Below, piece after piece: positions 385 through 37,220 of a stretch of DNA of 37,220 bases. Numbering within the stretch: position 1 is the first letter of the stretch; the number at the start of each line of letters is the position of its first letter. Source of the DNA: Chloroflexota bacterium (lineage in GTDB: Bacteria > Chloroflexota > UBA6077 > SHYK01); assembly GCA_035652535.1 (NCBI GenBank), contig DASRDP010000047.1, positions 1 to 37,220 on the forward strand. The letters run 5' to 3'. Under the pieces are notes generated by a model. That model was not told the DNA's origin and did no database searches. It was given only the letters and a program-made list of their open reading frames with translations. The translations under genes and the position numbers were made by a program.

Positions 385-1644
385 ATGACTCAACCAACGG
401 CGCGACCAGATGAGCGGCCCCTTCGCGTCGGCGTAGCGGGACTCGGCTTTGGAAGCACCGAGTTCCTACCTTCCCTCGAGCGCATGCCGCAGCTTTCGCT
501 GGAGGCCGCGGCCGACGTCAGGCCGCAGGCCCTGGACGCGTTTCGCACGCGCTATGGCGGACGGGTCTACGAACGCGTCGAAGACCTGTGCGCCGATCCC
601 GACGTCGACGCCATCTGGATTGCCACGCCCAACCAGTTTCACGGCCAGCACGCGCTCTGGGCCGTCGAGCGCGGCAAGCATGTCGTCGTCCGCAAACCGC
701 TCGCCTTGACCATGGAGGAATGCCAGCGGGTCGTGGACACGGCGGAGAGGACAGGCGCGCGCGTCCTCGCAGGAGCGCAAACCCAGGGCACCAACGCACT
801 GATCAAAGAGATCCGCCGAATGATTGTCGACGGCGAGCTCGGCCGCCTGCGCGCGATCAACATGTGGGCCTACACCGGGTGGATGCTGCGCCCGCGGATG
901 CCCCAGGAGGTGGACGACAGCCAGGGTGGGGGAATTGTGTGGCGCCAGGCTCCTCACCAGCTCGAAACCATTCGGTGGCTCGGCGGAGGCCTCGTCCGCA
1001 GCGTGCGCGCGGTGACGGGACGCTGGCGGCCAGAGCGCCCCAATGGCACCGGCTATTTCACGGCTCTGCTCGAGTTCGAGGACGGTACGCCCGCCACCAT
1101 CGTCTACAACGCGTACGGCTACTTCGACTCGGTCGATCTCATCAAGTGGGGGACGGACAAGGGAATCGACGACCGCGCACGCCAGCGCAAGGCGCTCCTG
1201 AGTGGATCGATCGACGAGCCAAAACTGAAGGAGACGACGCGCTTCGGCGCCCTGATCGAGGGGCGCGAGGGCCCGCAGATCCCGTGGGAGGCCGGTACGG
1301 CATACGTGAGTAGCGACGGAGGGCCCTGGATGCCCGGCAACCAGGGCGTCTTCATCGTCAGCCTCGACCGAGGAGACGTTCGAGCTGCCCCCGCAGGACT
1401 CTATGTGTACGGCGACGAGGGCCTTCGCGAGGTTCCGATTAGCCAGCGCCGCGGGGAAGGCATGGCCTTCATGGACGAGGAAGCGATGGAGCTGTACGAC
1501 GCCATTCGCCACAATCGACCGATGCTGCACGATGCTCGGTGGGGCATGGCCACCGCGGAGGTGCAGTGGGCGATCCTCGAATCTGCTCGCACACGAAGCG
1601 AGATCGTATTGAAGCATCAGGTTCCCGTGCCGACCGGTTATTGA
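385..1644 (+). CDS. Gfo/Idh/MocA family NAD(P)-dependent oxidoreductase
   Basis: A predicted cytosolic sugar or cyclitol dehydrogenase-type protein of 419 residues. The N-terminal Rossmann fold shows the dinucleotide motif VGVAGLGFGSTEF near residues 13-25, followed by typical IDH-MocA elements (WIATPNQFH, then VVVRKPLALTMEEC). The lysine of the family's EKP signature is kept (K104), but the preceding Glu is Arg. The C-terminal half is the alpha/beta substrate-binding domain. The start is placed at ATG 385, not the in-frame ATG at 358, because gaggagg at 371-377 sits 7 nt before it. The substrate cannot be named: the family acts on inositols, glucose derivatives, phthalate dihydrodiols and others. 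No sugar transporter or isomerase is adjacent. Confidence 0.88.
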   Translation: MTQPTARPDERPLRVGVAGLGFGSTEFLPSLERMPQLSLEAAADVRPQALDAFRTRYGGRVYERVEDLCADPDVDAIWIATPNQFHGQHALWAVERGKHVVVRKPLALTMEECQRVVDTAERTGARVLAGAQTQGTNALIKEIRRMIVDGELGRLRAINMWAYTGWMLRPRMPQEVDDSQGGGIVWRQAPHQLETIRWLGGGLVRSVRAVTGRWRPERPNGTGYFTALLEFEDGTPATIVYNAYGYFDSVDLIKWGTDKGIDDRARQRKALLSGSIDEPKLKETTRFGALIEGREGPQIPWEAGTAYVSSDGGPWMPGNQGVFIVSLDRGDVRAAPAGLYVYGDEGLREVPISQRRGEGMAFMDEEAMELYDAIRHNRPMLHDARWGMATAEVQWAILESARTRSEIVLKHQVPVPTGY

Positions 1645-26605: not shown

Positions 26606-29032
26606 CTACGGGTGGGGAACGCGAATGCCGAGGTCGGACCCGAGCGCCAGGAACCGACGCCGTCGGGCACTGTGTTCCTCGCTGAGCCCACCGTCCCCGC
26701 AGAGGGAGACGCCGACATCCCCGTGGAGCAGCGACCAGTAGACATTCTGCACGCGCCACAGATCGACGTTGAATGGAAAGAGCTTGATGGCCCGGACGAC
26801 CGCCGACAGCGAATCTAGAAGCCTGGGGCTCGACGGATCGCGCGCCAACTTTTCCGCGGCTCGGACCGCGCGCTGGCCCGCAAGTTGGCGAAGGCTCGCT
26901 TCATCCAGCCCGACGCCTGCGCGTCCGACCGAGGCCAGGATGCCGCGCATTCGCTCCAGATCCGGCTCGTCCCGTTCGAGCTCGCGCCGCAACGCGCTGT
27001 TCAGGACGGTCTCAGCGGCCGTCTTCAGGGAGCGCGGAAGCGGAATGCCCAGCTCGTGCACGAGGGCGACGAGCGGCGCGCGGCGCTCGAACACCTGTCG
27101 CGCGGCGCTTTCCGTCTCCTCGACAGCCGCCGCCAGCATCGGAGCGAGGATCTCCCGCTGTTCGTCTCGAAACAGCGAGTTGAGCGAGTACCGAACGCCG
27201 CCGAAGTGTTTGTCGAGCTGCCGGATTACCTGTGCAAGGTCCGCCTGTTCGAAATCCGCCGTCACCTCCTCGGCCATGGAAGCGAAATCGCCGAGATCGG
27301 CGGACCTGCGAACGCCGGCGCTCAGGTTCTGGTCGCCGAAATGCAGGACGCCAAAGGTCACCGAGTCGCTGTCCCAGGTCAGACCAGATGTCACATGCAC
27401 GCGGCCAACCGCGAGCTTCGCGCTCCCGCGCTGCCGGACTTCATAGTCCTCGACGTCGAAGGCGAAATGGTAGCGCGTCGCGCTGGCGACGGTCGATCGG
27501 AATACGGAGCTGATGGCGAAGTGGGCGCCGGCCTCGAGCGGCCCAACGATTGACGGTTTCACCAGCGCGCGGTAGATGTCCGCCCCGTTGCCGCGCTCCG
27601 GCACGTTGCTCTTCGCCCCTTCGAGGATCTGACAGAACCGCGGCTCGAGGTCACGATGGAGCACGTCCCGCGCAAGCTGAATGACCCTCCCCGCGTATTC
27701 GAGGATCTGGACCGTCTCGATGCCGGAGATGTCATCGAAGAACCAACCACAGCTGGTGTACATCAGCATCGCGTGGCGCTGCATCTCCATAAGGCTCAGA
27801 ACCTCGCGTCGGTCGTCGGGGCTCAGGACGTGTCGCGCGTGCCGCGCGAAGAACGCCTCGACGCTCGCGCGCGAGCGGTCGAGGATCACCGAGATGTAGT
27901 CGTCACGCGCGCTCCACGGGTCGTTCAGGTGGCGACCGGCTCGCTCCTCCCAAGGCCTCGCGACGGCGTCGCGCAGATCGTCGAGCGCCGCGCGAAGCGG
28001 CGCTCGCCATCGCTGATTCCATGAACGACCCGAATTGCAGCCGCAATCACCACGCCAGCGCTCGAGGCCGTGGGCGCAGCTCCATGCGGTGTTTTCGCGG
28101 ATGTCGACTTCGTGGGTGGGAGGGCGCAACGCCAGGTACTCGCCATATACGGTGATGCGGGCCAGCGAATCGCGCGCAATCCGGCGCAGCGCGAAGGCAA
28201 GGGCCATCTCACCCCACCGATGGTGGTGACCGTAACTCTCGCCATCCGTGGCGAAGTGGACGAGCCCCGCCGAGGCGCCGTTTTCCCGATAGCCCGCCAT
28301 GAGACGCTCGGCGAAACGCGCTCCGTCTGCGAGCAGCCCCTCGAAGGCGACACCGTGCGCGATCGCGCCGTCGTAGAAGAACAGGTCGATCGATTTGCCG
28401 GACGGGAGGCGGCGGCGGTATGGCATCGTCGGGTCGATCCGCCCACCCTCGACGTCCTGCCACGCGTCCGTGCCGATGCGGCGAACGCCGCGGGCCTGAT
28501 CCGGAGAGAGGATGGTGAAACGGATGCCCGCCTCCGCGAGCGCCTCCAGCGATGGGTCGTCGACCGCCGTTTCGGGCAGCCACATCCCCTCCGGCGCGCG
28601 GCCAAACCGGTGCTGAAAGTCTCGGAGCCCCCAGAGAACCTGTGTATGGCGATCCTTTGCGTTCGCGAGGGGCATGATCATGTGGTTGTACGCCTGCGCG
28701 ATAGCGCAGCCGTGTCCGCCGTAGCGATGCTCGCTCTCGTGGTCCGCGGCGATGACGGCGCGGTAGACGTCGGGCGCATGGCGCTCCATCCAGCTCATGA
28801 GCGTGGGCCCGAAATTGAAGCTCATCGACGCATAGTTGTTGACGATGTCGATGATCTGGTCCTCGTCGTTCAGGATCCGCGCGGCCGCGTTCGGTCCGTA
28901 ACACTCGGCGGTGATCCGCTCGTTCCAGTCGTGATACGGCGCAGCCGATTCCTGGTACTCGACCGCTTCAAGCCATGCGTTCTCGCGAGGCGGCTGATAG
29001 AAGTGGCCGTGGATGCACACAAACCGATCCAT
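26606..29032 (-). CDS. Glycoside hydrolase family 57 protein with DUF3536
   Basis: An 808-residue cytosolic GH57-type enzyme. The N-terminal (beta/alpha)7 barrel has CIHGHFYQPPREN, then the nucleophile motif MWLPETAVD (Glu154) and the acid/base region HFATDGESYGHH (Asp263), the two catalytic carboxylates of GH57. The C-terminal half, from about residue 330, is helical and matches the DUF3536 region that follows GH57 in many proteins (MLMYTSCGWFFDDISGIE). GH57 enzymes act on alpha-glucans (amylase, branching enzyme, pullulanase), so a role in glycogen or maltodextrin metabolism is likely but unproven; no other glycogen gene is in the window. ATG 29032 starts the first strand directly; no good ribosome-binding site precedes it. 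Confidence 0.9.
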   Translation of the reverse strand: MDRFVCIHGHFYQPPRENAWLEAVEYQESAAPYHDWNERITAECYGPNAAARILNDEDQIIDIVNNYASMSFNFGPTLMSWMERHAPDVYRAVIAADHESEHRYGGHGCAIAQAYNHMIMPLANAKDRHTQVLWGLRDFQHRFGRAPEGMWLPETAVDDPSLEALAEAGIRFTILSPDQARGVRRIGTDAWQDVEGGRIDPTMPYRRRLPSGKSIDLFFYDGAIAHGVAFEGLLADGARFAERLMAGYRENGASAGLVHFATDGESYGHHHRWGEMALAFALRRIARDSLARITVYGEYLALRPPTHEVDIRENTAWSCAHGLERWRGDCGCNSGRSWNQRWRAPLRAALDDLRDAVARPWEERAGRHLNDPWSARDDYISVILDRSRASVEAFFARHARHVLSPDDRREVLSLMEMQRHAMLMYTSCGWFFDDISGIETVQILEYAGRVIQLARDVLHRDLEPRFCQILEGAKSNVPERGNGADIYRALVKPSIVGPLEAGAHFAISSVFRSTVASATRYHFAFDVEDYEVRQRGSAKLAVGRVHVTSGLTWDSDSVTFGVLHFGDQNLSAGVRRSADLGDFASMAEEVTADFEQADLAQVIRQLDKHFGGVRYSLNSLFRDEQREILAPMLAAAVEETESAARQVFERRAPLVALVHELGIPLPRSLKTAAETVLNSALRRELERDEPDLERMRGILASVGRAGVGLDEASLRQLAGQRAVRAAEKLARDPSSPRLLDSLSAVVRAIKLFPFNVDLWRVQNVYWSLLHGDVGVSLCGDGGLSEEHSARRRRFLALGSDLGIRVPHP

Positions 29033-29158: not shown

Positions 29159-30391
29159 CTACACCCAGGCGGGCTCTGGGAATCCGGACATTTTGGTCCA
29201 GTCCGCTCCCGTGGGAACGAGCCGCTGCTCGGCTCGAAGCTCGTCGAAGCGAAGGGATGGGTCGAGCCCTGGTGGCTGTTCGCCTCGTTCAAGTCCCCGC
29301 ACGGCGTCCAGCATGCGTCGGCGGAACCGAATCACGGCGACGTCCGACGCCCCGAGGTGCTCCTTGTGGCGCGGGGCGAGCAAGCCCATGCTTTCCGTCA
29401 TCGCGCGATCCTGGGCACGAATTCCCTGAATTCCGGACCAGTTCCCAGCCTTCATCGCCGCCCGGTCTTGCAGATGCATGTTGCCGCGATTGCCGGCCGG
29501 TCGGTAGCCCGTCTCGAGCCCGGCCTCCTTCTGAGAATCGACGAGGGGCCCGAATCGACTCAGACTGAAGCTGAAGAACGCGTGCGTCTCGTCGTCGATC
29601 GGCACGTAGACGCGATGGGTCGCCGTCTCATACGGCGCGCCGTCGCGCATGGTGCGGAGCGGAGGCGTGAACGTGTGAAACGGCGCCGCGAATAGCGTGA
29701 TCCGCACGTACTTGAGCTTGTCTGCGTCGCTATCCGGATCTCGAATGGCGGCGTACCGGTAGCCATAGAGCGTGTCCTCGACCTCGAAGCGTGGGGCGTG
29801 GTCCCGCGGCCGTCCGCGCACGTCTGACGAGTGGAGATAATCCGTGTGAGCGGAATCGATGTCTCCTTCGAGCGCCTGGGCCCAGTTACACGCCTGGATC
29901 GTCTTGGCCAGCCCCACGCGCTCCGGCGGAAAGTGGGTCCATTCCCACTCTGGAAAGGCTGGCACACGATGCTTCGGTCCCATGTATGTCCAGATCACGC
30001 CCGCGTGCTCGCGTACGAGGTATGCTCGCTGCTTGATCCGGTCCTTGAACGTGCTCTCCGGTGGCTCGGGCGGCGTTTCGAGGATGTTCCCCTCCACGTC
30101 ATACTTCCAGCCGTGGTACAGGCAGCGGAGGCCGCCTTCCTCGTTTCTACCATAGGCCAACGAGGCGCAGCGATGCGCGCACGCCTCGTCCAGGATCCCG
30201 ACTCGCCCGGTGGTGTCGCGGAATGCGACCAGGTCCTCGCCGAGCAGACGCGTCCGGACGGGCGTGCAATCCGGTTCCGGCAGCTCCTCGCTGAGCAGGG
30301 CGGGCATCCAGTAGAGGCGCACGAGCTCTCCCATGGGCGTGCCCGGCCCGGTTCGTGCGAGCAGCTCGTTCTCTTCAACACTCAGCATCAT
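29159..30391 (-). CDS. Rieske non-heme iron oxygenase, alpha subunit (phthalate dioxygenase type)
   Basis: A 410-residue ring-hydroxylating or O-demethylating oxygenase. The Rieske [2Fe-2S] site is complete (C71-A-H73 in EACAHRCASL, C90-L-Y-H93 in CLYHGWKYD). The mononuclear iron site is present in NWAQALEGDIDSAHTDYLH (D179, H182, H187), with the bridging Asp expected in this class. Length and the single-subunit look fit the class of phthalate 4,5-dioxygenase and vanillate-type demethylases, which need a separate reductase; none is adjacent. Two ATG codons (30391, 30388) follow ggagg at 2 and 5 nt, so 30388 is the better-spaced start. The substrate is an aromatic compound not identifiable from sequence. 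Confidence 0.92.
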   Translation of the reverse strand: MMLSVEENELLARTGPGTPMGELVRLYWMPALLSEELPEPDCTPVRTRLLGEDLVAFRDTTGRVGILDEACAHRCASLAYGRNEEGGLRCLYHGWKYDVEGNILETPPEPPESTFKDRIKQRAYLVREHAGVIWTYMGPKHRVPAFPEWEWTHFPPERVGLAKTIQACNWAQALEGDIDSAHTDYLHSSDVRGRPRDHAPRFEVEDTLYGYRYAAIRDPDSDADKLKYVRITLFAAPFHTFTPPLRTMRDGAPYETATHRVYVPIDDETHAFFSFSLSRFGPLVDSQKEAGLETGYRPAGNRGNMHLQDRAAMKAGNWSGIQGIRAQDRAMTESMGLLAPRHKEHLGASDVAVIRFRRRMLDAVRGLERGEQPPGLDPSLRFDELRAEQRLVPTGADWTKMSGFPEPAWV

Positions 30392-30454: not shown

Positions 30455-30859
30455 CTAGTCCGCGGCAAGGGTGCCGCGCACCGCGGCGGCGAGATCGTCG
30501 AGGTCAAAAGGCTTCGCGATATATCCGGCCGCGCCGATTTTTCGGGCGCGCTCGGCCACGGTTCCCGCGGCGCTCATGACGAGAATCGGTGGAGGATCGG
30601 CGAAGAGCTTCGTCAGCTCTGCCGCGACCTCCTCCCCGCTCAGGACGGGCAAACCCATATCGAGCACGACGAGAGTCGGGCGCTCCTCCGCCGCGCGATC
30701 GAGGGCTTGCCGGCCATCGGCCGCGCTGGCAACGATATACCCTTCGTCCTCGAGCACAGCGCAGACGACGTCTCGAAGGTCTGGCTCGTCCTCGACAACC
30801 AGCACAACCGCGCGCCCGCCCGATCCAGCACGGACTATCGACGGGCTCTGCTCCGTCAA
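30455..30859 (-). CDS. Single-domain response regulator (CheY-like)
   Basis: A 134-residue stand-alone receiver domain. It has the acidic pocket E-D in VVEDEPDLRD, phospho-acceptor Asp in LVVLDMGLPVLSG, Ser in LVMSAAG at the conserved Thr/Ser position, and the Lys in YIAKPFDLDDL. With no output domain it must act by protein contact, or as a phosphate relay or sink. The TTG start at 30859 overlaps the TGA stop of the upstream kinase gene by 4 nt (TTGA), which supports translational coupling. It is the last gene of the four-gene signalling operon and the natural partner of the REC-PAS-PAS kinase. Confidence 0.9.
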   Translation of the reverse strand: MTEQSPSIVRAGSGGRAVVLVVEDEPDLRDVVCAVLEDEGYIVASAADGRQALDRAAEERPTLVVLDMGLPVLSGEEVAAELTKLFADPPPILVMSAAGTVAERARKIGAAGYIAKPFDLDDLAAAVRGTLAAD

Positions 30860-32865
30860 CCGGTCCTTCCGCGCGCAACACCGGGAAGCTGGACGACGAA
30901 CATCGTGCCCTTTCCCTCGGCGCTCTCGACGGTGATGAACCCTCCGTGCTGGTCGATAATCTGCTGTGCGCCCGAGAGGCCGATCCCAGCGCCCTCGATA
31001 TGGCCATGAACGTTGCTGCCGCGATAGAAGCGTTCAAAGATCCGCGGGATCTCGTCGGCTGGTATGCCCAATCCGTGGTCTCGCACGCGAAGTTCTGCCC
31101 ACTCGTCATCGCCCACAGTCGTGACCGCGACTCCCAATTCGATGCGCCCTCCCTCGGGGCTGTACTTTATCGCGTTGGTGACCAAATTCACGATTACCCG
31201 CTCGATTCGGTCGCGGTCCCAGACTCCGACGATCGGATCGCTTGCGCATTCGACGAGAATCTCGTGCCGGTCGGACGAGGACTGCAGCTCGCTCGCAACC
31301 TCGCGCACGAGGGAGATGAGGTCGACCGGTTTGGGGTCCAGCTCGATGGGCCGACCCATCTGCAGGCGTGCCACGTCGAGCAGCTCGTTGACCATTCCAT
31401 TGAGCCGCCGCGTTGCCTGATCGATGCTCCGGAGCCCCTCCAGGACCGTATCCATCGCCGCTCCCTCGGTCCGGCCCGCGCGACGCATGAGGAGCTGGGC
31501 CTGAGCTTTGACGATTGCCAGCGGATTCTTCAGATCATGTGACGCCGCAGCCAGAAACGCATCCTTCTGGCGTTCGAGCTCGATGATTGGCGTAATGTCC
31601 TGGAGCGCGGCGACACCGCCCACAATGCGCCCATCGGCGTTGCGCAGCGGCGCGCTGTTCATCAATACGGGGATGGGATTGGCGCTCGCCTTGCTGCTGA
31701 TCATCAACTGTTCGCCGAGCACCGTTTCTCCCTGCACAATGGCCCGCACGAGAGGAAGCTCCTCGGAGGACATGGGGGACCCATCGAGACGATAGCGGCT
31801 GAGCGACTCGGCGGCCCAGCAGTCCGATGCGTCGGGGAGTCCGCCGATGATCTTCACGGCCGTGGCATTGCACATTTCGATGCGCCCGTCAGCGTCCGCG
31901 ATCAGGATCCCCTCCGGCAGCACGTCCAGCACTTGCTGTAGATGGTCGCGGGCGCGCTCCGCCTCGGCGCGCGCGGTCTGCTCGTGGATGAGCCGCGCTC
32001 GCTGCTCCTCCGCCTCACGCATCTGCGTGATGTCCTGCCCAATGGCAACGTACCCGACGAGGCGCCCGTCCGTGCCGACGCGCTGCTCCACGGAGAACGC
32101 CGCGCTGAAGGTCGAGCGGTTCCTCCGCACGCCGTCGAGCCTGCTCGTCACTCGTCCGTGCTCCCGCGCGGCTTTGAGCAGGCCCTCGACTCGCCTCGCG
32201 GATGCGTCCTCCGCACGCACGAGTCGAGCGAGGCTCTTACTGCCCACGATCTCCGAATCCTTGTACCCGAAGATTCGCCGAGCGCCCTCGTTCCAGGACA
32301 GAATGGTGCCGTCGAGGTCGAGGGCCATGATGGCGTATGCCGTCGCGCCCTCGAGCACGCTGTTGAGGAACGCGGTCGTATCGGCGAGCGCCACAGCCTG
32401 CCGCTTCACCTGTTCGGTCTTCCTGAACAGGTCGATGAATACGTTGACCTTGGAGCGCAGGATCTCCGCGTCGATCGGCTTGACGATGTAGTCAACGGCG
32501 CCCAGGGAGTACCCGCGGGCGATGGATACGTCCCCACTAATCGCCGCGGTCAAAAAGATGATGGGCGTCTCCCGCGAGCGCTCCCTGCTGCGGATCAACT
32601 CGGCGGTCTCGAATCCGTCCACATCGGGCATGTGGACATCGAGCAGCACGACAGCGAAATCGTCATGCAAGACGGCGCGGAGCGCCGCGGCGCCCGAGTC
32701 GGCGCGGACCAGCTCGCGATCCGGCGCCGCCAGCACGCTTTCCAGCGCCGTCAGGTTCTTCACTTCGTCGTCAACGAGCAGAATCTTTGCTGCCGGCACG
32801 TCCTGGACGGCCGCGTCCTCGCTGGATACCCGCCTTTTCGGTTCAGCGATGCGGGACGTCGCCAT
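30856..32865 (-). CDS. REC-PAS-PAS hybrid sensor histidine kinase
   Basis: A 669-residue soluble kinase with an N-terminal receiver. Order: REC (LLVDDEVKNLTAL, phospho-acceptor in VVLLDVHMPDVDGFE, FLTAAIS, YIVKPIDAE), a PAS domain (ALDLDGTILSWNEGARRIFG) with a PAC-type end (GYVAIGQDITQMREAE), a coiled coil, a second PAS (VLPEGILIADADGRIEMCN), then HisKA (AAASHDLKNPLAIVKAQ) and HATPase_c (NLVTNAIKYSPEGG, VRDHGLGIPADEI, GAGIGLSGAQQI). The N-terminal REC lets the upstream hybrid kinase control this one. Start ATG 32865 lies 2 nt after the stop of the CheR-like gene, with ggagga upstream; a longer frame upstream overlaps that gene and looks non-coding. No membrane segment. Confidence 0.92.
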   Translation of the reverse strand: MATSRIAEPKRRVSSEDAAVQDVPAAKILLVDDEVKNLTALESVLAAPDRELVRADSGAAALRAVLHDDFAVVLLDVHMPDVDGFETAELIRSRERSRETPIIFLTAAISGDVSIARGYSLGAVDYIVKPIDAEILRSKVNVFIDLFRKTEQVKRQAVALADTTAFLNSVLEGATAYAIMALDLDGTILSWNEGARRIFGYKDSEIVGSKSLARLVRAEDASARRVEGLLKAAREHGRVTSRLDGVRRNRSTFSAAFSVEQRVGTDGRLVGYVAIGQDITQMREAEEQRARLIHEQTARAEAERARDHLQQVLDVLPEGILIADADGRIEMCNATAVKIIGGLPDASDCWAAESLSRYRLDGSPMSSEELPLVRAIVQGETVLGEQLMISSKASANPIPVLMNSAPLRNADGRIVGGVAALQDITPIIELERQKDAFLAAASHDLKNPLAIVKAQAQLLMRRAGRTEGAAMDTVLEGLRSIDQATRRLNGMVNELLDVARLQMGRPIELDPKPVDLISLVREVASELQSSSDRHEILVECASDPIVGVWDRDRIERVIVNLVTNAIKYSPEGGRIELGVAVTTVGDDEWAELRVRDHGLGIPADEIPRIFERFYRGSNVHGHIEGAGIGLSGAQQIIDQHGGFITVESAEGKGTMFVVQLPGVARGRTG

Positions 32866-32867
32866 CA

Positions 32868-33710
32868 CTAGTAGATCCTCCGATAGATTCCACCTGTGGA
32901 GAACAGCTCGTACGCGGAACGCGCGGAACCATCGATCGTCTCGCTGGCGCCCAGACACAAGAACCCCAGACGCACCAGACTGGTTCGAAAGAGCTCATGG
33001 CCCCGCGCTTGAACCGGGGCGCCAAGCGCGGGAAGCACACCGCGGCAGAGGATCGCCTGAAACTCATTGAACGGACCGTCGGTCGCGAGATTGTGCTGGG
33101 CGAAAATCACGTTGCGCTTGAGGGATGGGCGGAAGATCGCGTTGTCGTAACGCGCTGTGTAGTATTCAGAAAAGGCTTCCCTGCCCCCTGCGCGCACATA
33201 ATTCGCAGTGTACTCCTGCATGGACGCGAGGGGGAAGATGCCTTCCCGCGCCCGATTCAGGGACCAGCCGACGACGTCGGTGGCATAAAGCCGGCACCGA
33301 TCGTACAGGCCCTCCTCCTCGAGGAGTATCGCCATCGAATAGACCTCTTCGCCCGTCGAGCACCCGACGTGCCAGATACGGATGAAGGGATAGGTTCTGA
33401 GGAAGGGAACCACCGCCACCCGAAAGGCGCGGTAGAAAGCGGGCTCGAAGAACATGGCGTCCGCCTCGGTGGTGAGGCTCCGAAGCAGCCGTCGCCGACT
33501 CCCTTCGTCGTGGAGCATCTTCTCCCGTAGCCCCCTCACCGTCTGAAGCTGCTCCGCCTCGACTCGGCCCTGGATCTTGCTCCGCAGCCGGGCCACCGGC
33601 ATGGCGCGGTAGTCGAACCCATAGTCGTGCAACAGGATCTCCAGCAGATCCAGCTCAGCCGGATCCAGGAGGCCCTCGCCAATCAGACTGCCCAAACCGC
33701 CCACTTCCAT
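32868..33710 (-). CDS. CheR-like protein with degenerate catalytic motifs
   Basis: A 280-residue CheR-family protein. The SAM-binding motif is kept (IWHVGCSTGEEVYSMAILL near residues 112-130, YATD with D145) and the middle matches the CheR type found beside hybrid kinases (MQEYTANYVRAGG, SEYYTARYD, FAQHNLATDGPFNEF). The catalytic signature L-T-x-N-x-T-x-x-F-R reads LTTEADAMFFEP, with Glu82, Asp84 and Phe88 for Asn, Thr and Arg. The motif CRNVLIYF reads CRGVLPAL, with Gly224, Ala228 and Leu229 for Asn, Tyr and Phe. The C-terminus has also drifted. The start ATG touches the TAA of the hybrid kinase gene (TAAATG). Methyltransferase activity is doubtful; a binding role is more likely. Confidence 0.85.
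   Translation of the reverse strand: MEVGGLGSLIGEGLLDPAELDLLEILLHDYGFDYRAMPVARLRSKIQGRVEAEQLQTVRGLREKMLHDEGSRRRLLRSLTTEADAMFFEPAFYRAFRVAVVPFLRTYPFIRIWHVGCSTGEEVYSMAILLEEEGLYDRCRLYATDVVGWSLNRAREGIFPLASMQEYTANYVRAGGREAFSEYYTARYDNAIFRPSLKRNVIFAQHNLATDGPFNEFQAILCRGVLPALGAPVQARGHELFRTSLVRLGFLCLGASETIDGSARSAYELFSTGGIYRRIY

Positions 33711-37220
<3,510 letters not shown>

Follow-up and report, generated by a model that had tools for sequence, protein, structure and literature searches.

The window analysed here, a whole contig of 37,220 nucleotides from a Chloroflexota bacterium, encodes a CheR-family protein without its catalytic residues, in which one bounded stretch, the SAM-sheet core with the β-subdomain, nevertheless keeps every conserved position. 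The gene lies in an operon that lacks the stand-alone CheB of most relatives, next to a hybrid kinase whose S-helix lacks a conserved heptad. We consider it fairly probable that a methylation circuit like that of RsbK/RsbM was dismantled in this lineage, and that CheR survives as a partner that no longer catalyses but docks or binds SAM/SAH. The loss of CheB and of the kinase heptad, which gives the finding most of its meaning, was missed by the initial annotation of this DNA, which had dealt with CheR alone as a possible pseudo-methyltransferase.

The cheR frame starts with an ATG at 33710, directly after the stop codon of the upstream kinase gene, and runs without internal stops to its own stop codon at 32868-32870. 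A search of the other frames with the family profile gave no match and thus no frameshift, and coding GC periodicity is retained. The intact frame with E82, D84, F88 and CRGVLPAL is as the initial annotation had described it. Taken alone, the open frame is a weak sign of selection on the gene, as the probability of finding no stop under modest neutral change is 0.09-0.23. The protein belongs to the CheR family according to its Pfam PF01739 match (95.2 bits, against a curated cut-off of 27). Structure prediction, a check suggested at the outset, yielded a confident CheR fold (AlphaFold2, pLDDT 88.3) with a Foldseek TM of 0.80 to the Bacillus subtilis CheR structure 5ftw. The earlier statement that the rest of the fold remains thus agrees with the model, but in sequence the protein has strongly diverged at both its N-terminal domain and its C-terminal part.

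Table 1. Features of the cheR operon in the window, with the basis of each assignment.
Positions	Strand	Feature	Basis
33711..37220	-	Upstream hybrid kinase: HAMP repeats, GAF, S-helix, HisKA, HATPase, three receivers; cut by contig end	domain search
35940..35993	-	S-helix stretch of the kinase, lacking a heptad that relatives have; junction near 35963/35964	comparison of kinases
32868..33710	-	CheR-family protein, 280 aa, without catalytic residues	open frame, Pfam CheR 95 bits, AlphaFold2 pLDDT 88.3, Foldseek TM 0.80 to 5ftw
33477..33668	-	CheR N-terminal domain, residues 15-78; 6/12 conserved positions lost	conservation count, branch lengths
33438..33476	-	CheR motif 1, residues 79-91; LTTEADAMFFEP replaces L(S/T)VNVTxMFRDP; R98 equivalent is F88	alignment, relatives' conservation
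33048..33437	-	CheR SAM-sheet core and β-subdomain (158-200), residues 92-221; 0/31 conserved positions lost, rate normal	conservation count, branch lengths
33006..33047	-	CheR motif 2, residues 222-235; CRGVLPAL replaces CRNVLIYF; Y235 equivalent is A228	alignment, relatives' conservation
32866..32867	.	2-bp gap from cheR stop to next start; most relatives carry stand-alone cheB here	gene-order comparison
30856..32865	-	Receiver-PAS-PAS-histidine kinase, next gene of the conserved module	domain search, gene order
30455..30859	-	Single-domain response regulator, last in the cluster	domain search

The window protein was compared with 96 relatives that score above 150 bits and belong to Chloroflexota, cyanobacteria, Gemmatimonadota, Paenibacillus and other groups. 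Its nearest matches are about 55-58% identical and are encoded in same-order genomes, and no CheR orthologue was found in the four genomes of the same family. The finding concerns one draft genome without a close relative, the nearest being too distant for a dN/dS estimate. In a phmmer alignment to 5ftw, E82, D84 and F88 stand opposite N, S and R, and G224, P227, A228 and L229, from the stretch at residues 222-229, opposite N, I, Y and F. Among the 96 relatives, conservation of R88, N224, I227 and Y228 reaches 100% when given to two decimals, and that of T84 is 96%. The window protein alone lacks all of R88, N224, I227 and Y228, and therefore no pseudo-CheR clade exists in the sampled data. 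The search proposed earlier, for a clade sharing E82, F88 and G224, found none among the 96 relatives, 29 genomes of the class and 400 genomes sampled from the phylum.

In Salmonella CheR, R98 and Y235 form the key catalytic pair, and an R98A mutant is cited as non-swarming (PMC3447774). At the positions of this arginine and tyrosine of active CheR glutamate methyltransferases, the window protein carries F88 and A228. Because both published catalytic residues are gone, the loss of methyl transfer is strongly supported, and we infer that methyltransferase activity is absent. The residues that we take to contact the methionine end of SAM in the Salmonella structure (N92, T94, R98, N231) are lost, whereas those presumably contacting the adenosine side are kept, so that ligand binding may be weak; SAM binding by this protein is uncertain.

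Sequence change along CheR is regional. Of the positions conserved in at least 95% of 47 thinned relatives, the two motifs have lost 7/10 and the C-terminus 0/8. Together, the core and C-terminus keep 39/39, whereas the N-domain and the two motifs have lost 13/22 (Fisher test against the core: 5e-6 for the motifs, 1.5e-4 for the N-domain). None of six sister sequences shows the same pattern of loss. Branch lengths estimated per region on a fixed tree agree. For the core, the window branch has a length of 0.23, against 0.29-0.57 for the sisters, and for the β-subdomain 0.10 against 0.37-1.33. The window branch is instead the longer one for the N-domain (1.59 against 0-0.25), the motifs (4.5 against 0.13-0.43) and the final 45 residues (1.44 against 0-0.34). 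The kinase encoded next to CheR evolves in a clock-like manner (0.26 vs 0.25 and 0.25), as an identity comparison confirms. Acceleration is therefore confined to CheR, where it affects every part but the core. The decay is non-random, and the constraint confined to the core supports continued selection on the protein. Loss of methyl transfer and this sign of selection both favour a pseudo-methyltransferase, a reading that they support in part. The idea that the second helix of the N-domain had become less positively charged was rejected, the net charge being inside the family range.

The same gene order of kinase, CheR, CheB and receiver/kinase is found in cyanobacteria, Gemmatimonadota and Chloroflexota, with kinases up to 73% identical to that of the window over 1199 aa and CheR proteins up to 58% identical. 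Unlike the window, these operons have kept the catalytic residues and mostly CheB, and the heptad is present in all of their kinases examined. In most relatives, including L034 and L006 from the same order, a CheB of about 190-200 aa is encoded between cheR and the receiver-PAS-kinase gene. Stand-alone CheB is absent both from the window operon and from the 98%-complete genome, whose only two CheB-domain proteins (frames of 388 and 397 aa) are encoded on contigs that also carry chemoreceptor genes. Many Nostoc loci, as well as Paenibacillus and genome G014, have an intact CheR with no CheB next to it. Loss of CheB is thus not enough to bring about decay, and a strict coupling between CheB loss and CheR decay was rejected.

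The window kinase is split over two contigs. The assembly break falls in the HAMP repeats, at window end 37220, and the probable N-terminal part lies at G000:C140:8639-9439 and is 79% identical to L034. Further downstream in the window are genes for a GH57/DUF3536 protein (26606-29032) and a Rieske oxygenase whose C-terminal domain is LigXa-like (29159-30391). A true CheR pseudogene follows a related hybrid kinase in L180 (G099:C17, ~648-1025, minus strand); it matches profile positions 18-65 and then 222-273 in another frame, the middle being deleted.

Between GAF and HisKA, the S-helix of L034 carries TSELQEQQEELQQTNEELEEK, and the window kinase has one heptad less. The heptad, QQ(E/D/Q/R)(E/Q)(L/M), is present in all 50 first-examined kinases that lie beside an intact family CheR, and in those added later. 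Among twelve kinases with a readable S-helix from genomes without a strong family CheR match, 11 keep the heptad or a variant; the exception is G008, a genome of the same order, in which the kinase gene is followed by the receiver-kinase gene with neither CheR nor CheB between. The corresponding locus, L175 (G008:C274, 7619-11071 and 4300-7619), lacks the same heptad as the window. In the kinase tree the window groups with the heptad-bearing L034 and G010, and G008 falls outside (SH-aLRT 100). This topology does not support a shared ancestry of the two heptad losses, so they are most simply, and apparently, independent. Since CheR-less kinases mostly keep the heptad, a strict coupling of heptad and CheR was rejected, and the link of the heptad to methylation is loose. 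S-helix length varies by sevens, in whole heptads, among the kinases of L034-L187, as if the phase of the coiled coil were kept. In kinases of the genomes G099, G281, G117, G180, G194 and G306, which give no strong CheR match, the QQEEL heptad often contains a basic residue (QQDRL, QQREL, QQKEL), perhaps a sign that acceptor residues are under less constraint there.

The operon is reminiscent in its architecture of the RsbK-RsbM system of Bacillus cereus. There RsbM, a CheR-like protein with no CheB as its counterpart, methylates the S-helix of the hybrid kinase RsbK, and receiver and S-helix are in stronger contact when RsbM is co-expressed (PMC4574943). In both, a CheR-like gene directly follows a hybrid kinase gene with HAMP, GAF, S-helix, kinase (HisKA) and receiver domains, and there is no partner CheB. 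The likeness is one of architecture: RsbM is an active methyltransferase, whereas the window CheR is without catalytic residues and its kinase without the heptad; the window kinase also has more HAMP and receiver domains, and the neighbouring genes downstream encode a receiver-PAS-kinase and a single receiver, not an RsbY phosphatase regulator with sigma B output. Given the comparable architecture, the ancestral CheR probably served to methylate the S-helix of the kinase. The loss of the catalytic residues and of the heptad speaks against such methylation in the present window system.

We therefore favour the explanation that a circuit of hybrid kinase, CheR writer and CheB eraser, comparable to RsbK/RsbM, would have been taken apart in this lineage. 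CheB would have been lost, the kinase S-helix would have lost the heptad as a candidate acceptor or contact site, and CheR would have lost its methyl-transfer residues together with much of its N-domain sequence, yet been retained as a non-catalytic protein whose gene abuts that of the kinase. The β-subdomain serves in receptor systems as the docking site for the receptor pentapeptide (PMC7390727), and since the conserved remainder of the window CheR consists of the SAM sheet and this subdomain, we propose a non-catalytic partner of the kinase, in which these parts may still work by docking on the kinase and possibly by reading SAM or SAH. More tentatively, the pseudo-CheR could bind SAM/SAH through its core and dock through its β-subdomain, methylation adaptation being replaced by direct metabolite or occupancy control.

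The fast evolution of the N-domain and C-terminal part weighs against retention as a partner and would be expected of a relic, that is, of a CheR decaying slowly toward deletion after loss of its circuit. This main rival draws on the window branch being several times longer than those of the sisters, on the outright loss of cheR and cheB from the related genomes G008, G253 and G117, on the truncated pseudogene of G099, and on how little an open frame proves. We nevertheless regard a slow relic as unlikely because the core is untouched: the conserved positions of core and C-terminus are all kept, the core evolves at a normal rate and the β-subdomain more slowly than in intact sisters, and the gene has no frameshift and a confident fold. 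The same fully conserved core would suit a protein that is still an enzyme, methylating another substrate or using other catalytic residues after change of its N-domain and active-site loops. The CheR N-domain faces the substrate helix, and its changes here would fit a switch to a new partner. There are also known pseudoenzymes whose catalytic residues have migrated (PMC10211241). Against this stand the loss of both published catalytic residues, the effect of R98A on swarming in Salmonella (PMC3447774), and the lack of any apparent compensating basic or aromatic residue at the lost positions, and we judge continued catalysis quite improbable.

An assembly or consensus artefact, or a recombinant gene, is barely credible. 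The genome is a draft of 168 contigs, the window is a whole contig with the kinase cut at its end, and the divergence is blocky along the gene; but the other frames do not match the family profile, and the many separate in-frame codon changes are unlike consensus error. A chimera or gene conversion was likewise rejected, as the trees of core and flanks both place the window nearest same-order relatives (with weak support).

Compared with the proposed retention of CheR as a non-catalytic partner, putatively inactive CheRs and pseudo-methyltransferases of other families are already known. Four CheR proteins with N-terminal TPRs, suggested to be inactive, likewise lack the R98 and Y235 equivalents (PMC3447774). 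These are TPR fusions that align poorly with canonical CheR, whereas the window CheR stands alone, has a well-conserved core and is encoded next to a hybrid kinase. A methyltransferase fold has also been kept for a non-catalytic role in METTL14, the pseudo-methyltransferase that partners METTL3 (PMC5023411). METTL14 belongs to an unrelated family, and no active paralogous partner is known for the window CheR. In the open-access literature we found no earlier account of a writer, an eraser and a kinase heptad that had changed together while a bounded core stayed conserved.

Kinases offer many known pseudoenzymes, but among CheR methyltransferases they are scarcely documented. Here the writer, the eraser and the candidate target are all altered in one lineage, yet constraint persists over a bounded portion of the writer; this points to a non-catalytic function of CheR. 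A CheR-less kinase has lost the heptad too, apparently independently, and this suggests where CheR enzymes may act on hybrid kinases, which is testable in intact systems.
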